Source of the DNA: Synergistaceae bacterium
GTDB lineage: Bacteria; Synergistota; Synergistia; Synergistales; Aminobacteriaceae
Direction of reading: 5' to 3'
Assembly: GCA_017470485.1 (NCBI GenBank)
Contig: JAFUYQ010000016.1
Coordinates: forward strand, 1 to 64,000
Length of the DNA stretch: 64,000 nt
The position numbers were made by a program, and so were the translations under genes. A model generated the notes under the pieces. It made no database searches. It worked only from the letters and a program-made list of their open reading frames with translations, and was not told the DNA's origin. Below, piece after piece: positions 18,798 through 27,966 of the stretch. Numbering within the stretch: position 1 is the first letter of the stretch; every line of letters begins with the position of its first letter.

Positions 18798-19895
18798 TTG
18801 CACAGAAATTCCCGTGTTTCCAAATCTTCACGGCGGAAACGTAAATTCTTTTTCTCAGGACTTGTATTCATGCTCGTTCTGTTCGCACTCTCAGCCGCCG
18901 CTTACTCGGCCTATCATCTCAAAGTTCCGGCTCAGTTCTGGGAATATATGATACCTGTTCCAGAGGAAGGAATTAAAGTCAGCGTTAAGATCGACAGCGG
19001 CATGAATGCCCTACAGGCCGCCAGAGCGTTCGAGCTTCAGGGCGCACTCGAATACGGAAGCCCCGTCGAATTAGCTAGATGGCTCGTAAAGTTCGGTATC
19101 GACAGAAAAATCCGCGCCGGTCATTACTCAGTCATTCCGGCGGACGCTTGGACGCTCGCAAGACAGCTCAGAAATGCTAAACCGGCTCTCCTAAAAGCTC
19201 AAATTCTTCCCGGCCTCGACATCTTCGCAATGATTGATTCCCTCGAAAGTCAGGACAAAAAAGTCAACCGTGAAGCTGTTTCCCTCGCTCTCATGAATGA
19301 CAAAAATTATCCCCCCAAACTCCTCGAAATTTTGAAAGCCCTCCCCGACGACGAATACACTCGTACAGCCTTTCTAATGCCGGAAACGTTCATGCTCGTT
19401 GAAAGAACTGCCGACGAAATCATCAGTGCCGCCTCAGCCGCATGGTGGAACCACTGGGGCGAGTTCATAACTTCTCATAATCTTTCGGTCAAAGATATTC
19501 AGGACGCTTCGATTATCGCCTCGATGGTCGAGCGCGAGGTACTTCATGACGCTGAATGCAGAACAGTCTCTGGCGTAATTCATAACAGGCTCAGAAAAAA
19601 TATGCTCCTTCAAATTGACGCTACAGTAGTTTACGCATGGAGGCTCAAAGGACGAAAATTAACACGCGTTCTCAATAAAGACCTCGAAGTAAATTCTCCT
19701 TATAATACTTACAGATACTACGGGCTTCCCCCAAGACCGATCTGTGTTCCGGGAACTGAGGCTTGGGGAGCGGCGTTAGACCCCGAATTCAACGACTATT
19801 TATACTATGTCGCAGGGCGCGACGGATACCATTATTTTTCAAAAACTTACAAGGAACACCTCGCTAATATCAAGCAGGTTCGTTCCGGCAGATGA
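18798..19895 (+). CDS. mltG: Endolytic murein transglycosylase MltG
   Basis: 365 residues, with one N-terminal transmembrane helix (about 17-37) after a basic stretch and then the periplasmic YceG domain. The catalytic Glu245 sits in ASMVEREV, followed by NRL, LQIDATVVYA, NTYRYYGLPPRPI and YYVAGRDGYHYFSKTY. MltG cuts nascent glycan strands and is thought to terminate chain growth (established). TTG start with AGGAAG 11 bases upstream. It leads the division and cell-wall cluster and is followed 19 bases later by the FtsK-like gene. Confidence 0.93.
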   Translation: MHRNSRVSKSSRRKRKFFFSGLVFMLVLFALSAAAYSAYHLKVPAQFWEYMIPVPEEGIKVSVKIDSGMNALQAARAFELQGALEYGSPVELARWLVKFGIDRKIRAGHYSVIPADAWTLARQLRNAKPALLKAQILPGLDIFAMIDSLESQDKKVNREAVSLALMNDKNYPPKLLEILKALPDDEYTRTAFLMPETFMLVERTADEIISAASAAWWNHWGEFITSHNLSVKDIQDASIIASMVEREVLHDAECRTVSGVIHNRLRKNMLLQIDATVVYAWRLKGRKLTRVLNKDLEVNSPYNTYRYYGLPPRPICVPGTEAWGAALDPEFNDYLYYVAGRDGYHYFSKTYKEHLANIKQVRSGR

Positions 19896-19914: not shown

Positions 19915-22044
19915 ATGCCTAGACAAAATGATGAAAACGAAAACAATAAAGCCAGTCTTCCAGAATTAGTGCAGTTCATCGTAATTATTGCCTGCGTCTA
20001 CTGCTTAATGTCCCTTTTCGGAAGCTCTTTGACCGGCGAGGGAGGCAGACAGCTGGGCAATTATCTGCGAAATTCTTGGGGAGGCCCCGTAATAGTAATC
20101 ATACTGTTCGCAATGTACATCTCAGCCGCTAAACTCCTAAAGTTCCGCGTCCTTAAATTACGCAGACAGTTCTTCGGAACTATCATTCTATATGTCTCGT
20201 TCGCGTTCATGCTCGGCCTGCTCAATGAATCGGGCTGGACTTCTGAATTAACTTTGCTGACCGCAGGAAAGTTCGGCTCCGGCTTGGCGCATTTCTGCGT
20301 CCTAAATGCAGGAACTTTCATAACTTTAATTCTCGTCGCGGCATGTTTTATTCTTTCGGCGGTATTCTTCGGCTCGAAACTCATGAGGCTTTCTATCCCT
20401 AAAATTCCTCGTCTCTATCATCAGCGCAGACAGCTCTCCAAAAATAGAAAACGCCGCCGAACTCAACGCCCCAGTCAACAAAAAACAGAAACAGAAACAG
20501 AAACAGAAAATATACCCGACACCGATGAAATCCCAATCCCAACGGGAAAAATTGTTTTTCAGCCGCCAAAGCTCAAACCTGCTCCAGAAGGAAAAGAAAT
20601 CAATCTGCCGGAACGTTCGGAAGCCGGAGAAAATCAGGACACTGCTGAGCATATTGTTCCGGTCATAGGGAACGCCGTTGAAGTCATAGACAACGCGCTG
20701 GCTTTAATCAACTCTGATGAACTTAAACCGCCAGTTCAAAAATCCTCTAAACCTTCTAAATTTCCGTCAAAGAAACTCCGCCGTCCTTTACCTGCACCAT
20801 CTTTCACGGTGGAAAATATACAATCCGAAAATCAGGATAATATTCCTGAAAAAAAATCTCCGCTCCTCTATGACGAGTCTGCTTTCCCTCCGCCTCCTGA
20901 ATTATTCGGCACTAAAACACGTTACGAGCCTGACCGCCAAATTCTCAAAAATTCAGAGAAACAAGCTAAAACTATCATTACTGCCCTGAGAAATTTCGGC
21001 GTAAATGCTTCAGTCGCTCACATAATCACGGGACTTACATTCATACAGTACCAGCTTGAACTATCTCCCGGAACTAAAGCCAGTAGAATCTCCGGCCTCG
21101 CTGATGACTTAGCTATATCGCTGGCGGCGGTGTCAGTGAGAATTGAAGCACCCATACCCGGCACAGGTTATATAGGAATAGAAGTCCCCTGCGCTGAACG
21201 GAAATTCTTACCGATGAGGAATTACATTGAGAGCGAGGAATATAAGACGTCGGCGGCAAGACTGCCATTAGCGATAGGAGTACAGGCAGACGGAAGAATT
21301 TTTACAGCAGGGCTTGAGGAAATGCCGCACATACTGGTAATCGGGAACAGAGGTTCGGGACGCAGAATGTTTGTAAACGCTTCGATAGTGAGCATGTGTT
21401 CGCGGAGGAAACCGGAAGAGCTGAGACTGATACTTATAGACACCAGACGGGCGGATTTTGCGGTATATGATGGACTGCCTCATCTTTTAGCCTCGCCGGT
21501 AACTGAAACAGATTCTTCAGTGAAGGCGTTGACATGGGCATATGATGAAGTTGAGAGGAGGACTTCGTTATTTTCGGGTTATAGAGTTCGGGATTTGACT
21601 GCGTTCAACAAGAAACAGAAAAACGGCGGTAAACTCCCAGAAATTGTCATAATCATCAGCGAGCTTGCCGATTTAATTTACAGCGCAGGAAATGAAGTCG
21701 AGAGCATAATAATGAGGCTTTCACAGAAAGCTGGAGCGGCTGGAATACATATGATGATAGCGGCACAAAGTTCTTCATCAGATATAATCACTACGATGAT
21801 AAAGTCGAACATACCTGTGAGGGCTGTATTCAGCTTACCGACGGAAGCAGAGTCGAAAAATGTAATCGGTAATTCCGATGCGGTAAGGCTCACGGGGAAG
21901 GGAGATATGATACTCAGGAACGAAGGCGGCGAGGCGGTGAAGAATGTGCGCTGTCAGGCACCTTTCATAAGCGAGGATAAGATTTCCGAGTTCGTTGAGT
22001 ACATGTTCAGCAATCTCGAACCGACTGAGATGATGAAGTTCTAA
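19915..22044 (+). CDS. FtsK/SpoIIIE-like protein with degenerate ATPase motifs
   Basis: 709 residues. Four membrane helices (about 12-150) and a basic then Pro/Glu-rich linker lead to FtsK alpha and beta domains from about residue 345. Homology is clear (ERRTSLFSGYRVRDLTAFN, SNIPVRAVFS, LTGKGDMIL). However, Walker A reads GNRGSGRR (477-484), with Arg in place of the essential Lys483 and of the next Ser/Thr. Walker B reads IIISELADL, with Ser582 in place of the Mg-binding Asp. The usual AQRPS is AQSSS. The protein ends without the winged-helix gamma domain that reads KOPS sites. I infer a non-translocating membrane and septum factor rather than a DNA pump. ATG at 19915 was chosen; upstream in-frame codons lie inside mltG. 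Confidence 0.88.
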   Translation: MPRQNDENENNKASLPELVQFIVIIACVYCLMSLFGSSLTGEGGRQLGNYLRNSWGGPVIVIILFAMYISAAKLLKFRVLKLRRQFFGTIILYVSFAFMLGLLNESGWTSELTLLTAGKFGSGLAHFCVLNAGTFITLILVAACFILSAVFFGSKLMRLSIPKIPRLYHQRRQLSKNRKRRRTQRPSQQKTETETETENIPDTDEIPIPTGKIVFQPPKLKPAPEGKEINLPERSEAGENQDTAEHIVPVIGNAVEVIDNALALINSDELKPPVQKSSKPSKFPSKKLRRPLPAPSFTVENIQSENQDNIPEKKSPLLYDESAFPPPPELFGTKTRYEPDRQILKNSEKQAKTIITALRNFGVNASVAHIITGLTFIQYQLELSPGTKASRISGLADDLAISLAAVSVRIEAPIPGTGYIGIEVPCAERKFLPMRNYIESEEYKTSAARLPLAIGVQADGRIFTAGLEEMPHILVIGNRGSGRRMFVNASIVSMCSRRKPEELRLILIDTRRADFAVYDGLPHLLASPVTETDSSVKALTWAYDEVERRTSLFSGYRVRDLTAFNKKQKNGGKLPEIVIIISELADLIYSAGNEVESIIMRLSQKAGAAGIHMMIAAQSSSSDIITTMIKSNIPVRAVFSLPTEAESKNVIGNSDAVRLTGKGDMILRNEGGEAVKNVRCQAPFISEDKISEFVEYMFSNLEPTEMMKF
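20485..20508 (+). repeat. Four tandem copies of ACAGAA inside the FtsK linker
   Basis: A perfect 6-base repeat encodes a Thr-Glu run (TETETETE) in the flexible linker. Copy-number changes would lengthen or shorten the linker without breaking the frame. Confidence 0.9.
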
Positions 22045-22093: not shown

Positions 22094-23506
22094 GTGAAGA
22101 AAATTTCATTTATGTTTCAGGCTGACAAAATAAAACGTGTTCATCTTATGGGCATAGGGGGCGCAGGAATGAGCGCGCTTTCGCTTCTGTTAAAGGCTCA
22201 GGGGCTTGAGGTATCCGGCTGTGATTTGTGCCAGCCCCATTACGATTTAGGCGATATTCCCTGCGAAATACCGCACTCGGCTGAACACATCGGGCGTTAC
22301 TCGCCTGACGCTTTAATTCTCAGCACTGCGGTTTCCCGTGAAAATCCCGAAGTCTTACTAGCAGAACAGAAAGGCATTCCTGTATTTTCACGCGCTGAGG
22401 CTCTAAGCAGTCTTTTTAATAAGTCTTACGGTATCGGTATAGCCGGTACTCACGGAAAGACAACAACCACTTCAATGACCGCTCTGATTTTCCTGAAAGC
22501 AGGATTAAATCCGACCGTCTATGTCGGAGCGAACGTTCCTGATATTGGCTCAAACGCCGTAGCAGGTTCAGGCTCGCCGGAAAATCACTTCATCGCCGAA
22601 CTAGATGAGTCTGACGGGTCTTTTCTGCTTTTCACCCCTAAAATCGCGGTTATCACTAACGCTGACTGGGATCATGTAGATCATTACCCGACACGCGGCC
22701 ATGTTATTGAAGCGTTCACGAGGTTTGCGGACGGACGGAAGGACGGCGGGGCATTAATCCTCTGTGGTGAAGATGAAGGAGCGTCCCATGTCTACGAAAA
22801 TTGCAGAAAAAATCACGGCCAAATTATCCGTTACGGCTGGGGAAAAGGCCACGACTGGGGAGCTTATGACATCGTAAAATCTCACGGCGGCGGAATTTCC
22901 TGCAAAGTCGCTCACTCAGGAAAAGAATTAGGCACTCTCTCGCTCTCAGTTTCGGGCGAACATAATATTCTCAACGCATTAGCCGCTATTTCATCGGCTG
23001 ACCTCTGCGGAATTGACTTCTCACAAAGTGCTGAGATTTTACACGGCTTTCACGGCTCTGAACGCAGACTTCAGGTCTTAGGCTCGTCCGTCAATGACAT
23101 TCTAGTTATTGACGACTACGCCCACCACCCTGCCGAAATCAACGCCACTCTCTCCGCCGTCAAGGGCATTTACCCCGAACGCAGACTTGTCATTCTCTTC
23201 CAGCCACACAGATTCTCAAGAACTGCCGCTTTCGCCCCTCAAACCGCCTCAGCCCTCTCAGCCGCCAATCCTGCTAAAGTCTTCATTCTCCCAGTATTCT
23301 CAGCCGGAGAAATTCCTTCGCAACACAGCTCATCACTCGAAATTCTCAGACATGCCGCTTCACCCGTCTTCACTGCCGCCGAAAGTCTCGATGACGCTTG
23401 CGCAAAATTGCTGGACGAACTCAGGACGGGCGACTTGCTCATCACTATGGGTGCCGGAAACGTTTACCTCGCCGGAAAGAAAATTCTCGCCTCGCTAGAT
23501 GTATAA
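22094..23506 (+). CDS. murC: UDP-N-acetylmuramate--L-alanine ligase
   Basis: 470 residues. This ATP-dependent Mur ligase adds L-Ala to UDP-MurNAc in the cytoplasm. Motifs are intact: the N-terminal Rossmann loop HLMGIGGAGMSALS, the P-loop GTHGKTTTT, LDESDGSF, NADWDHVDHYPT and DDYAHHPAEI. Two starts are possible. GTG at 22094 overlaps the AGGGGTGA ribosome-binding-like sequence, while ATG at 22112 begins closer to the conserved domain but 14 bases from that site. I list the longer form. It follows the FtsK-like gene by 49 bases and precedes murB by about 30. Confidence 0.95.
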   Translation: MKKISFMFQADKIKRVHLMGIGGAGMSALSLLLKAQGLEVSGCDLCQPHYDLGDIPCEIPHSAEHIGRYSPDALILSTAVSRENPEVLLAEQKGIPVFSRAEALSSLFNKSYGIGIAGTHGKTTTTSMTALIFLKAGLNPTVYVGANVPDIGSNAVAGSGSPENHFIAELDESDGSFLLFTPKIAVITNADWDHVDHYPTRGHVIEAFTRFADGRKDGGALILCGEDEGASHVYENCRKNHGQIIRYGWGKGHDWGAYDIVKSHGGGISCKVAHSGKELGTLSLSVSGEHNILNALAAISSADLCGIDFSQSAEILHGFHGSERRLQVLGSSVNDILVIDDYAHHPAEINATLSAVKGIYPERRLVILFQPHRFSRTAAFAPQTASALSAANPAKVFILPVFSAGEIPSQHSSSLEILRHAASPVFTAAESLDDACAKLLDELRTGDLLITMGAGNVYLAGKKILASLDV

Positions 23507-23536
23507 TATGGCCGGATATTTCTCTATGAATGCGTG

Positions 23537-24409
23537 ATGAACGTGAATTTTGATTTAGTTTACAATCAGCCCCTAGCCCCCCTGACCTCGCTCCGTACCG
23601 GCGGTTATGCCGAAATCTTCGCAAGCCCCGATACTCCTGACGCTCTCGGGACGCTCATTTCCTCGTGCAGACATACCCCTGTTCAGGTTCTCGGCGGCGG
23701 AAGCAATATCATCGTCCCCGATGGAACTGTTTCCGGCCTCACCGTCTCGCTCGGAAAAATGGCCTCGTTCAGGCAGATTTCACGCTGTACTGCTGAAATC
23801 GGCGCAGGCTATCCGCTCCCGAAACTGCTCAAAACTCTGCGCACTCTTAATCTCGGCGGCCTTGAGTTCGCTGTCGGCATTCCCGGAACAGCAGGAGGCG
23901 CGTTCTTAGGCAACGCCGGCGCAGGAGGACACGGGTTCTGCGAGCTTGTCGACACCGTTACCGCCCTCGACAGCTCCGGCCAGCTCATCACTCTCGAGCG
24001 CGGACAGTTCACTTACGGCTACCGATACTGCTCGCTCAGGGAAATGATTGTGATTTCAATGGTCATGACGTTCAGGGATTTCGAGCCGGAAGACGCTGAA
24101 CTTCTGGAATTTTACAGGGACAAACGCAGAAACCAGCCTGTATCATCAAGAAGCGCAGGCTGTACGTTCAAGAACCCCGAAGGTCATTCAGCCGGCAAAC
24201 TCCTCGACGAATGCGGCTGTAAAGGTCTTTCCATAGGCGGCGCAAAAGTCTCAGAACAGCACGCCAACTTCATAATCAACACCGGCAACGCCTCAAGCAG
24301 TGATGTGAACTCGCTGATTGACCTGTGCGCAAAGAAAGTTTATGACAGTACGGGAATAATTCTTGAGAGGGAGATAAAGACGTTAAGCCCGTGCTTTTAC
24401 ACGCGGTGA
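23537..24409 (+). CDS. murB: UDP-N-acetylenolpyruvoylglucosamine reductase (type II)
   Basis: 290 residues. FAD-dependent MurB makes UDP-MurNAc. Seen are the FAD-binding VLGGGSNIIV, GLEFAVGIPGTAGGAFLGNAG, the YGYRYC loop and the C-terminal SAGCTFKNP, whose Cys is the proton-donor position in type II enzymes, followed by GAKVSEQHANFIIN. The length and the short loop after the active site fit type IIa. An in-frame GTG lies just upstream at 23534. The 3' end overlaps the FtsQ-like gene, consistent with an operon. Confidence 0.95.
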   Translation: MNVNFDLVYNQPLAPLTSLRTGGYAEIFASPDTPDALGTLISSCRHTPVQVLGGGSNIIVPDGTVSGLTVSLGKMASFRQISRCTAEIGAGYPLPKLLKTLRTLNLGGLEFAVGIPGTAGGAFLGNAGAGGHGFCELVDTVTALDSSGQLITLERGQFTYGYRYCSLREMIVISMVMTFRDFEPEDAELLEFYRDKRRNQPVSSRSAGCTFKNPEGHSAGKLLDECGCKGLSIGGAKVSEQHANFIINTGNASSSDVNSLIDLCAKKVYDSTGIILEREIKTLSPCFYTR

Positions 24410-25173
24410 GTGCCTTGCGTTCATCTCGGCTGTTTTTGGCGGCATTTTTGGCAGGAAGTCTTCTGTACATCAGGGATTATAAATACTGGTTTACAATGAG
24501 CAGTTACCGTGTAGAATCACAGTCTCAGGCATTGGAGCGGAGATTTTGGGACGTTTTCCCGATGAGATGCCTGACGTTCTGGCCGTTATTCCTGAAGGAC
24601 GCTGAGGGCGTGAAGGAATTTCTCGAGCGCGATATGCCCGTTTCTGTTGAAACTGAGATGGAAGGTCTGGGGCATTTCAAGACTAAAATTGAATGGCTCA
24701 GTGCTTGGGTGAAAGTCGACTGGCGCGGTAAAATCTGGTGTATTTCACGGGACGGGAGAATGTGGCTTTTCGAGCGCGGACGGCAGAACGACAATGCGGC
24801 CGGAAAACTGGTCTGGAAAATCCCCGATGACGGAAGCGTAACCGGCGGCATAACTGACGCGCCGATGTCTGGAGTATTCAAGTCTCCGCTGTCAACCGAA
24901 GTGATAGCCTCGTTTCTCGATGAGTTCAACGACTGCAAATGGTTCGGGGCGGCAACTGACATTACATGGCAGAGACGAGCCGGAATGGACTTGTTTTCCC
25001 TGAAACTGACGAGGGGCGGCCAGCATTTTGAGTTATACTTGCAGAGGGATAAATACAGCGGTCAGGACGTTGGAACAATGATAGACGAACTTTTCGCCCG
25101 TCTGATAACTGAGGGCGGAAATCATATAATAGACGCGACCTACGAGGGAAAAATTCTTCTTCGTAGTCTATAA
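24391..25173 (+). CDS. FtsQ/DivIB-like division protein (divergent)
   Basis: 260 residues with a short cytoplasmic start, one membrane helix (about 10-28) and an extracytoplasmic part. Sequence identity to FtsQ is weak. I make the call from position (murB, then this, then ftsA and ftsZ), topology, and a beta-rich stretch WLSAWVKVDWRGKIWCIS... matching the FtsQ beta domain, with a closing strand IIDATYEGKILLRS like the FtsQ C terminus. FtsQ links the Z-ring to septal wall synthesis via FtsB and FtsL. The POTRA part is poorly conserved. Possible starts are GTG at 24391, GTG at 24406 and TTG at 24415; overlap with murB suggests coupling. Confidence 0.6.
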   Translation: MLLHAVSALRSSRLFLAAFLAGSLLYIRDYKYWFTMSSYRVESQSQALERRFWDVFPMRCLTFWPLFLKDAEGVKEFLERDMPVSVETEMEGLGHFKTKIEWLSAWVKVDWRGKIWCISRDGRMWLFERGRQNDNAAGKLVWKIPDDGSVTGGITDAPMSGVFKSPLSTEVIASFLDEFNDCKWFGAATDITWQRRAGMDLFSLKLTRGGQHFELYLQRDKYSGQDVGTMIDELFARLITEGGNHIIDATYEGKILLRSL

Positions 25174-25213: not shown

Positions 25214-26635
25214 ATGCCGGGAAGAACTGACAGCCTCTTAGTGGGATTAAGTATGGGGACATCGAAGATTACAATGATAGTAGCGGAGAGAGACCGCCGT
25301 TATCCTGATTCAATACACGTTGTAGGTTTTGGGAACGCGCCGTCTCGCGGTATCTCGAAAGGGATAATAGTAAGCCTTCAAGACGCCCGGCAGTCAGTTG
25401 AGAAAGCATTTGCCGAAGCCCAGAGCATAACAGGAATTTCAGCGCGCAGGCTCAGCAATGTAGTCGTAGCATTCGACGCGATGGACGTTCAGAGCGAGTC
25501 AACTCACGGAATGGTAACGCTCGGAGGCCGCGAATCTAAATCAGTCGAGGAGGCCGATTTGAACCGTGTCATCGAGCGCGCCACAGCCAATTCAGTTCTA
25601 GCCAATGCCAACCGAAACAACATGTATTCCCTTCACATGATACCGACGAGCTACGAACTTGACGGGCGGCCTATCGATGAGCCTTTGAATATGAACGGGA
25701 GCCAGCTTGATTTATGGCTTCAGACTGTAGCTGTACCGATGACTTACGCTCAGAACGTTGTGAGCTGTGTCCAGTCAGCCGGACTTGAAATCAAAGGGCT
25801 TCTTCTGAAACCGTTGGCGAGCGCATTGGGAGCAGTTTACGACGAGGAAATGCGCGCAGGTTGTATCTCAGTTTCAATCGGCGGCGGAACGACGGGAGTA
25901 GTTTTGTTCAAGAACGGCAGAGCGTTCAGAGTTATGAGCATACCGATAGGCGGCGACCACATAAGGAGCGATTTAGCGTCGCTTCTCCACATGTCATTGG
26001 GCGAGGCCGAACATCTCAAGAAGAGAATATTCACAACGAGCGAGGACGATTTGAGGCGCGAGGGGGTAGACGTTGAACTTGCGTATCAGACAATTTTCGC
26101 GAGGATAGAGGAACTTTTCGGCGACCAGCTGAGGACGTTGCTCTCGGAATGCACACCGCAGAATTTCCCCAGCGGAATAATCCTTTCGGGAGGAGTTTCG
26201 GAGACGCCCGGCATAGAGATGATGTTGAGCGATATTCTTCAAATGCCCGTCCGTAAAGCCAGCCAACCCGTTTACGCAATGCCTTACGGTTTGGATAATC
26301 CTGCTTACGTCAGCGCGGCTGGAATACTTCGTTACTGCGTAGCGGTTGAGCGCGACCGTTATTCATTCATGGAATCGGGACAGGAGCTTCCGGGATTGGC
26401 GGAGCGTTCGGAGGCTAGGAGCAGACAGAACGATTTATCGCCCCAGAGAAACACCAGACGGGACAGGGAAATCACTGCGGACGAGGGAGAATTTGAGGAC
26501 GACTACCCCGATGAGCCTGAATACCCTGATGAAATTGATGAAGGTGAAGACCCATACGGACAGGGCAGAGCCAAACGAAGGAATTTCGGACAGATGATGA
26601 CTAAACTTGCCAACGAGATAAAAAATCTCTTTTAG
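25214..26635 (+). CDS. ftsA: Cell division protein FtsA with altered ATP-site residues
   Basis: 473 residues with the actin fold plus the FtsA-specific 1C insert (about 90-170, MYSLHMIPTSYELDG). The C terminus ends in an amphipathic helix (FGQMMTKLANEIKNLF) that would bind the membrane, preceded by an acidic Pro/Glu/Asp-rich linker. FtsA tethers FtsZ to the membrane. Unusually, the phosphate-1 Asp is Ser13 (VGLSMGTSK), and the phosphate-2 motif is SIGGGTTG with Ser221 and Gly228 where Asp is expected. ATP may still bind, but hydrolysis is doubtful. ATG at 25214, with AAGGGA upstream. It lies 40 bases after the FtsQ-like gene and 65 before ftsZ. Confidence 0.93.
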   Translation: MPGRTDSLLVGLSMGTSKITMIVAERDRRYPDSIHVVGFGNAPSRGISKGIIVSLQDARQSVEKAFAEAQSITGISARRLSNVVVAFDAMDVQSESTHGMVTLGGRESKSVEEADLNRVIERATANSVLANANRNNMYSLHMIPTSYELDGRPIDEPLNMNGSQLDLWLQTVAVPMTYAQNVVSCVQSAGLEIKGLLLKPLASALGAVYDEEMRAGCISVSIGGGTTGVVLFKNGRAFRVMSIPIGGDHIRSDLASLLHMSLGEAEHLKKRIFTTSEDDLRREGVDVELAYQTIFARIEELFGDQLRTLLSECTPQNFPSGIILSGGVSETPGIEMMLSDILQMPVRKASQPVYAMPYGLDNPAYVSAAGILRYCVAVERDRYSFMESGQELPGLAERSEARSRQNDLSPQRNTRRDREITADEGEFEDDYPDEPEYPDEIDEGEDPYGQGRAKRRNFGQMMTKLANEIKNLF

Positions 26636-26700
26636 CGGTGAACTTGCCACTCTCCGCAAAATACAATAAAATTCAGAAAGCGGAGGAGGAGACTAAAAAA

Positions 26701-27966
26701 ATGAATAATGACAACTTGTTCAAACTGACCAACAGCAATGTCCGTCAAAATGAAAAGATAGTAGTGTTCGGAGTGGGCGGAGGCGGCGGAAACGCTCTGA
26801 ACCACATAATAGAGTCGAACGTTCAGGGAGTGGATTTTGTTGCCGCCAACACTGACGCGAGGGCGCTCGACATGAATCAGGCACCCAACAAAATAATTCT
26901 CGGCGAGACTTTGACGCGCGGTCTCGGCGCAGGCGCGAACCCTAAAGTCGGCGCAGATGCCGCAAAAGAAAGCATTGACCGAATTAAAGAATACATCACA
27001 GGAGCGGACATGCTTTTCGTAACCGCCGGAATGGGCGGCGGAACTGGCACGGGCGCGGCTCCCGTCATTGCTGAAGCGGCTCGCGACATGGGCGTTCTTG
27101 TTGTCGGAGTAGTAACGAAGCCGTTTGGTTTTGAGATGGGGCGGCGAATGCGGACAGCTGAGGAAGGAATTGAGCATTTGAAGAAGAATGTTGACGCACT
27201 CCTGATAGTTGAGAACGACAAACTTCTTCAGATAGAGAACGGAATGAAAATGAAAATCATCGACGCTTACAAAAAGGTTGATGAAGTCTTGCGCCAAGCT
27301 GTACAGGGAGTTACGGATTTAATCACGAAATCGGGCTTTGTAAATCTTGACTTTGCGGACATCAAGGCCATTTTGACGGGCGCAGGAACTGCCATCATGG
27401 GCATGGGCGAGGGCGAGGGCGAAGACCGTGCGCGGCGTGCGGCTCAGAACGCAATCGAATCGCCTCTCATGACAATGCCTGTAACCGGTGCGACTGGAAT
27501 ACTTTTGAACGTAACGACCGGTTCAGAAATCATGCTCAGCGAGATGACCGACGCGGCGAAAATCATCGAGGAGAAAGCCGACCTTGACGCTCAAGTCATC
27601 TGGGGGCATGTCATCGACGATTCGCTTGGCGAGAAGGTTCACGTAACATTGATAGCGACTTTCCCGGAAGACGTAATGTCTCAGGCCGTGAAAAATGCGC
27701 GGATAAATGTGAAGCCGTCAGGAACTCAGCCGAAGCCCCAGCAGAATTTACAGCCTCCGGCACAGCCTCAGCCGCCGATACAGCCTCAGCCCCAACCGAG
27801 ACGGACGATATTCGACATATACAGCAACAAGCGGAGGATACAGCAGGAAGGTTTCGAGGAGGCACGGTTAACTCAGCCGAACGCGAACGAACAGGAGCCG
27901 TTTCCGGGAGTGCAGAGGAGATTTTATGACCAGCCGGCGATTTACAGGAGGAACAGGAAAGACTGA
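26701..27966 (+). CDS. ftsZ: Cell division GTPase FtsZ
   Basis: 421 residues. FtsZ polymerises at mid-cell to form the Z-ring. The tubulin signature GGGTGTGAAPV, the early GVGGGGGNALN and the T7-loop region NLDFADIK are intact, so GTP hydrolysis is expected. A Gln/Pro-rich linker (about 335-365) leads to the C-terminal peptide QPAIYRRNRKD that binds FtsA. ATG at 26701 is preceded by GGAGGAGGA 10 bases upstream; the frame extends 21 codons further but without homology. Its stop overlaps the next start by one base. Confidence 0.97.
   Translation: MNNDNLFKLTNSNVRQNEKIVVFGVGGGGGNALNHIIESNVQGVDFVAANTDARALDMNQAPNKIILGETLTRGLGAGANPKVGADAAKESIDRIKEYITGADMLFVTAGMGGGTGTGAAPVIAEAARDMGVLVVGVVTKPFGFEMGRRMRTAEEGIEHLKKNVDALLIVENDKLLQIENGMKMKIIDAYKKVDEVLRQAVQGVTDLITKSGFVNLDFADIKAILTGAGTAIMGMGEGEGEDRARRAAQNAIESPLMTMPVTGATGILLNVTTGSEIMLSEMTDAAKIIEEKADLDAQVIWGHVIDDSLGEKVHVTLIATFPEDVMSQAVKNARINVKPSGTQPKPQQNLQPPAQPQPPIQPQPQPRRTIFDIYSNKRRIQQEGFEEARLTQPNANEQEPFPGVQRRFYDQPAIYRRNRKD

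Follow-up and report, generated by a model that had tools for sequence, protein, structure and literature searches.

In the usual account FtsK does two jobs in a single protein, building the division septum and pumping DNA out of the way as that septum closes. A gene in the window (the whole 64,000-nucleotide stretch of DNA that was analysed) raises the question of what is left of these jobs when the catalytic residues of the motor have been replaced. An earlier reading of this DNA made without database searches (the sequence-only reading) had described the gene as an FtsK homologue with dead Walker A and Walker B motifs and no gamma domain, and had proposed a septal scaffold or a subunit of a mixed hexamer. 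The features of the locus are given below; the residue numbers K472 to R661 follow P. aeruginosa FtsK, and the numbering of the window's own protein differs (Gly607, for example, stands at the R620 position).

18798..19895, + strand: mltG/yceG (PF02618; neighbourhood comparison)
19915..22044, + strand: ftsK homologue, 709 aa, with membrane domain, linker, alpha and degenerate beta domains, no gamma (Pfam, alignment, AlphaFold model)
19948..20370, + strand: N-terminal membrane domain, residues 12-152, hydrophobic helices (high-confidence AlphaFold helices; hydropathy)
20371..20889, + strand: linker, residues 153-325, low-confidence and probably disordered (AlphaFold model)
20935..21204, + strand: FtsK alpha domain, residues 341-430 (PF17854; model)
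21205..22014, + strand: FtsK beta (RecA-like motor) domain, residues 431-700, fold kept and catalytic residues lost (PF01580; Foldseek to 6t8b/6t8o; dN/dS)
21343..21366, + strand: Walker A, GNRGSGRR, with K472 and S473 each replaced by R (codons read; alignment)
21640..21663, + strand: Walker B, IVIIISE, with D595 replaced by S (codon AGC, 21658-21660) and the catalytic Glu E596 kept (codons; alignment)
21733..21735, + strand: position of the trans arginine finger, R620 replaced by G (Gly607) (codons; alignment; roles from PMC9410874)
21763..21774, + strand: phosphosensor and DNA-gripping loop II, T630 replaced by A, Q631 kept, R632 and P633 each replaced by S (codons; alignment)
22094..23506, + strand: murC, first gene of the division cluster 3' of ftsK in most of the genus (Pfam; neighbourhoods)
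23534..24409, + strand: murB (Pfam)
24391..25173, + strand: gene in the ftsQ position, without a Pfam match and named from gene order; it looks like a fast-evolving FtsQ
25214..26635, + strand: ftsA (Pfam)
26638..27966, + strand: ftsZ (Pfam)

The ftsK frame is unbroken from an ATG at 19915 to a TAA stop at 22042-22044. Its product matches both FtsK_alpha (PF17854, 77.8 bits) and FtsK_SpoIIIE (PF01580, 127.7 bits) above cut-off, and of the solved structures P. aeruginosa FtsK matches it best (4.6e-72). The Pfam FtsK_4TM model stays under its cut-off across the genus, and also just under it in one relative with a canonical motor. The domain order (membrane, linker, alpha, beta) is that of the E. 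coli and P. aeruginosa proteins, with alpha and beta homologous over their full length, and the division-gene neighbourhood is likewise similar; however, the P-loop Lys and Ser, the Walker B Asp, the arginine finger and the loop II Arg are all replaced, and gamma is missing. Direct reading of the codons bears out what the sequence-only reading had reported of these motifs: Arg483-Arg484 (GNRGSG-R483-R484, codons at 21361-21366) stand where FtsK has GSGKS, Ser582 precedes Glu583 (I-S582-E583, at 21658) where FtsK has D-E, Glu583 being the catalytic Glu596, and the AQSSS loop (A-A617-Q-S619-S620-S) occupies the place of what is properly TQRPS in FtsK. Beyond these, Arg620, the arginine finger of P. 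aeruginosa FtsK (PMC9410874), has become Gly, and Ser619 sits at the position of the DNA-gripping Arg632. Alignment to P. aeruginosa FtsK shows that E596, D599, Q631 and R548 are all retained (for the roles of these residues and of R620, T630 and R632 in that protein, see PMC9410874). The predicted end before the winged-helix gamma domain also holds: FtsK_gamma has no Pfam match in the 709-residue protein and none in a search of the whole genome, and, counted from where the LTGKGDM motif begins, the protein ends 51 residues on, whereas relatives that keep gamma run on for approximately 138-151 residues.

To place this gene we compared 43 genomes of its genus (completeness 95% or more in 24) with 40 genomes from other genera of the family Synergistaceae. 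A single-protein search of named genomes returned no confirmed relative; a search with a 34-sequence alignment identified the group as ruminant-gut 'Synergistaceae bacterium' and 'uncultured Fretibacterium' assemblies. Of 42 genus proteins, 41 have lost one or more catalytic residues, at positions that are all invariant in 59 relatives: R620 is lost in 39 of 41 proteins, D595 in 33 of 42 and K472 in 21 of 42. The sequence-only reading had named a canonical P-loop in relatives as an observation that would overturn it, and the Lys-Ser pair is in fact retained in 12 of the 42; the conclusion nevertheless stands because in 11 of them the arginine finger or the Walker B Asp is gone. Other positions are kept. 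Glu596 is present in 41 of 42 proteins, and E596, D599 and S634 are nearly invariant, R548 is mostly kept, R661 is mostly Lys, and position 632 carries a positive charge (R or K) in 35 of 41; of the 122 columns that are invariant in canonical relatives, 56 remain at least 90% conserved in the genus. On an FtsK tree built without the catalytic columns, independent changes number 7 at K472, 12 at D595, 10 at T630, 8 at R632, one each at E596 and D599 and none at S634, the counts being minima and the tree a quick one in which several branches are long. The single-protein extremes are L077, which keeps K472, S473, D595, E596, R620 and T630 and may be an early branch of the genus (its long branch leaves the placement unsure), and L086 (genome G025), the most degenerate, with E596 changed to Ala and D599 to Glu and likewise a long branch.

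The beta domain is under purifying selection and the gene is not a pseudogene. Pairwise dN/dS within the genus is 0.046-0.12 (one value of 0.16 comes from a nearly identical pair), against approximately 0.005-0.05 for canonical pairs and 0.074 for a gamma-less pair from genus g31; these are simple pairwise estimates, with some dS values near saturation. The linker is the fastest-evolving part of the protein. In the AlphaFold model the membrane and alpha/beta regions are predicted with confidence and the linker is disordered; the model's best Foldseek matches are FtsK motor structures (6t8b, 6t8o and 2ius), for the closest of which the TM-score reaches 0.90 and the rmsd is about 2.1-2.4 Å. The earlier view of a maintained pseudo-ATPase in place of a decaying gene thus agrees with dN/dS and predicted fold alike, and a maintained, gamma-less, catalytically degenerate FtsK is confirmed as the rule in the genus.

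The partners of the motor are missing from the genus too, a co-loss that lay beyond the view of the sequence-only reading, which had suggested checking for dif and XerCD. FtsK gamma is found in none of the 43 genus genomes vs 33 of the 40 from other genera, and no convincing gamma remnants are present near ftsK in the genus. The seven gamma-less genomes of other genera are of several kinds: three (G071, G076 and G088, 75-85% complete) have strong Xer matches, and their gamma is probably merely unassembled; from G105 (80% complete) no FtsK was recovered; and the recovered FtsKs of one g26 and two g31 genomes end without gamma. The XerD model gives strong matches in 35 of the 40 other-genus genomes (best match 242-279 bits, usually two copies per genome), 'XerC/D' here meaning a clearly separated high-scoring class of which no member reaches NCBI's strict XerD cut-off. 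Recombinases of this grade are found nowhere in the genus, in which no genome exceeds 129 bits and several near-complete ones have no match. A short tyrosine recombinase of approximately 200 aa, the size of FimB/FimE-type inversion recombinases, is encoded elsewhere in the window's genome (G000, contig C13:19994-20521), with similar proteins in several but not all relatives. For dif, a first pattern taken from other phyla was noisy, and alignment of its single-copy matches yielded the family's own dif-like site, TGTCCTATAATRTATCTTATGTTACRT, which was used for the final search. It occurs in exactly one copy in 33 of the 40 other-genus genomes, with no control matches, and in none of the 43 genus genomes, the one g26 genome or the two g31 genomes; it is likely to be dif, given its form, its single-copy state and its presence in the same genomes as Xer. 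In several other Synergistaceae genomes (e.g. L240-L255) the site lies approximately 13 kb from ftsK. Most other genera of the family carry gamma, XerC/D and dif together, and the absence of XerC, XerD and dif is a further departure of the window's genus from E. coli and P. aeruginosa.

Genera g26 and g31 appear to be intermediates. Like the window's genus they lack gamma, XerC/D and dif and keep the mltG-ftsK pair; unlike it they have canonical Walker A, Walker B, arginine finger and TQRPS motifs. In L318 (G092, g26) ftsK stops a few residues into gamma, leaving an apparent stub (MDTGIASASGL) at the stop codon, with its motor motifs intact. Both genera stand apart from the window's genus on a RecA tree, on which the loss state changes three times on the best tree and at least twice on well-supported branches, and the resolution pathway was therefore probably lost more than once in the family. 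Since g26 and g31 have lost gamma, Xer and dif and yet keep an intact motor, the resolution pathway was probably lost before the motor decayed. Most likely Xer, dif and gamma disappeared first, followed by the arginine finger and then by Walker B and Walker A; the graded series from canonical FtsK through gamma-less FtsK with an intact motor to FtsK with a dead one suggests how such a machine is dismantled step by step.

The surroundings of the gene are in line with a role in division only, as the pseudo-FtsK lies among division genes. The pair mltG-ftsK is an old neighbourhood in the family, present also in g26 and g31, and where a genus locus is long enough to tell, murC-murB-ftsQ-ftsA-ftsZ comes next in most cases; in g26 and g31 a different frame, which by its sequence reads as thiamine pyrophosphokinase-like, lies downstream of ftsK in place of murC-ftsA-ftsZ. 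In E. coli, division requires the FtsK membrane domain, which hexamerises without the translocase (PMC3870252). We favour, with a probability of about 0.7, a maintained division or scaffold FtsK that has lost DNA pumping along with the XerCD-dif pathway, and the septal scaffold role put forward at the outset stands as the best inference. From its residues the protein is predicted to have neither ATPase nor translocation activity, and across the genus FtsK probably serves cell division only. A place in the divisome is suggested by the gene neighbourhood and by analogy with E. coli FtsK. The lineage would first have lost dimer resolution by FtsK-XerCD-dif, that is gamma, both recombinases and dif; selection on ATP-driven translocation would then have relaxed because there was no site left to bring DNA to; and the arginine finger would have gone early, with the Walker B Asp and the Walker A Lys then lost repeatedly in different species. 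The protein would still be selected as a membrane-anchored component of division, its N-terminal domain in the membrane and probably oligomerising at midcell, and its alpha and beta domains persisting as a ring-like structure that supports other divisome proteins and may make passive contact with DNA. Several observations count against this explanation: a dead motor domain this well conserved would not be expected if the membrane domain alone mattered, L077 keeps the six motor residues named above, and the retained E596, D599 and mostly R548, with the positive charge at position 632, could mean residual nucleotide or DNA binding.

The main rival turns on the conservation of the motor domain. 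A ring that binds DNA (and in some species perhaps ATP) without pumping, and so delays septum closure over trapped DNA as a passive clamp or sensor, would account for purifying selection on the beta domain; the charge at position 632, the Lys found mostly at R661 and the near-invariant E596, D599 and S634 fit as well. The window's own species, however, has Ser for R632 and AQSSS for TQRPS, and we regard a clamp as unlikely, though less so than what follows. Continued translocation by non-canonical catalysis, in which a P-loop Arg and an altered Walker B tolerate hydrolysis through Glu596, would draw on the same purifying selection, on the almost universal Glu596 and on the several species that keep Lys and Asp; it is made improbable by the joint loss of the P-loop Lys and Ser, Walker B Asp and arginine finger in the window's species, by the near-complete loss of the arginine finger in the genus, and by the absence of gamma to orient movement and of any dif or Xer target.

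The mixed hexamer, a dead subunit working alongside an active FtsK-type motor, has little left in its favour, and we give it hardly any weight. A second, canonical ftsK, which the sequence-only reading had proposed to look for, was not found by PF01580 search in the window's genome (one protein over cut-off; a draft, 86% complete in 35 contigs) or in near-complete relatives, and relatives in the genus as a rule have one FtsK each. A second gene could be missing from an 86%-complete genome, but not from all 43 relatives, and with one FtsK per genome the protein is unlikely to share a hexamer with a normal FtsK. Some genus species do encode other members of the FtsK/SpoIIIE superfamily: approximately ten genomes (e.g. 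L099 and L100) have EssC-like proteins of approximately 1500 aa with two FtsK/SpoIIIE ATPase domains, whose size and layout suggest type VII secretion proteins, but these are absent from most species and were not found in the window's genome. It is equally hard to credit that the pattern comes from faulty assembly, miscalled bases or a gene that died recently. The window does come from a draft, unfinished genome, but open frames with altered catalytic positions recur in dozens of independently assembled species and dN/dS is far below 1. Base errors at the altered codons, the other observation that was to undo the first reading, are ruled out by alteration of the same positions in most species of the genus; sequencing or assembly error and chance were also rejected on the Arg for K472 common to the nearest relative species (64% identical), and a recent pseudogene on the genus pattern and dN/dS.

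A maintained division protein without a pump leaves a puzzle, namely how chromosome dimers are resolved in RecA-bearing cells without XerCD-dif. We considered absence of RecA as a reason for dimers not to matter and rejected it, recA being present in most of the genus; with RecA kept, recombination, and hence chromosome dimers, should still occur. ParB is matched strongly (103-188 bits) in nine genera (g16, g17, g19-g24 and g32); the window's genus has no such match (best 86 bits, with four genomes above cut-off), and neither do the genomes searched of g18, g25-g31, g33 and g34. ParB is missing more widely than Xer, and its loss is therefore broader and probably older than that of Xer. SMC is full-length or nearly so in at least 16 genus genomes, the window's included, among the best 12 candidates scored per genome. 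A genus with RecA and no known terminus route (no FtsK pump, XerC/D or dif, and apparently no chromosomal ParB) may, at somewhat short of even odds, have an undescribed mechanism of segregation, an undescribed form of dimer resolution, or a form of chromosome in which dimers do not matter, with FtsK a purely structural protein of the divisome. The genus in effect offers a natural separation experiment, in which the DNA job and its partners are gone and a protein with a dead motor domain is still selected, and with it a way to see what FtsK does for division when it no longer translocates DNA.

A search of open-licence papers turned up no account of an FtsK pseudo-ATPase, nor one of Synergistota losing FtsK. 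PMC11154593 describes a degenerate ATPase (DUF) domain in EccC of type VII secretion, which is likewise a degenerated ATPase domain retained in a protein of the FtsK/SpoIIIE superfamily; as presented there, it is one of several such domains in a secretion motor, whereas that of the window's protein is the sole motor domain of a division protein. Parts of the dimer-resolution pathway have also been lost in insect endosymbionts, which include cases of dif loss (PMC3025954, PMC3914690) and Buchnera without FtsK (PMC10591338). Buchnera, however, has lost FtsK altogether, whereas the window's genus keeps it without the motor residues, and in contrast to the endosymbionts the genus consists of gut bacteria with RecA and genomes of 1.5-2.8 Mb.
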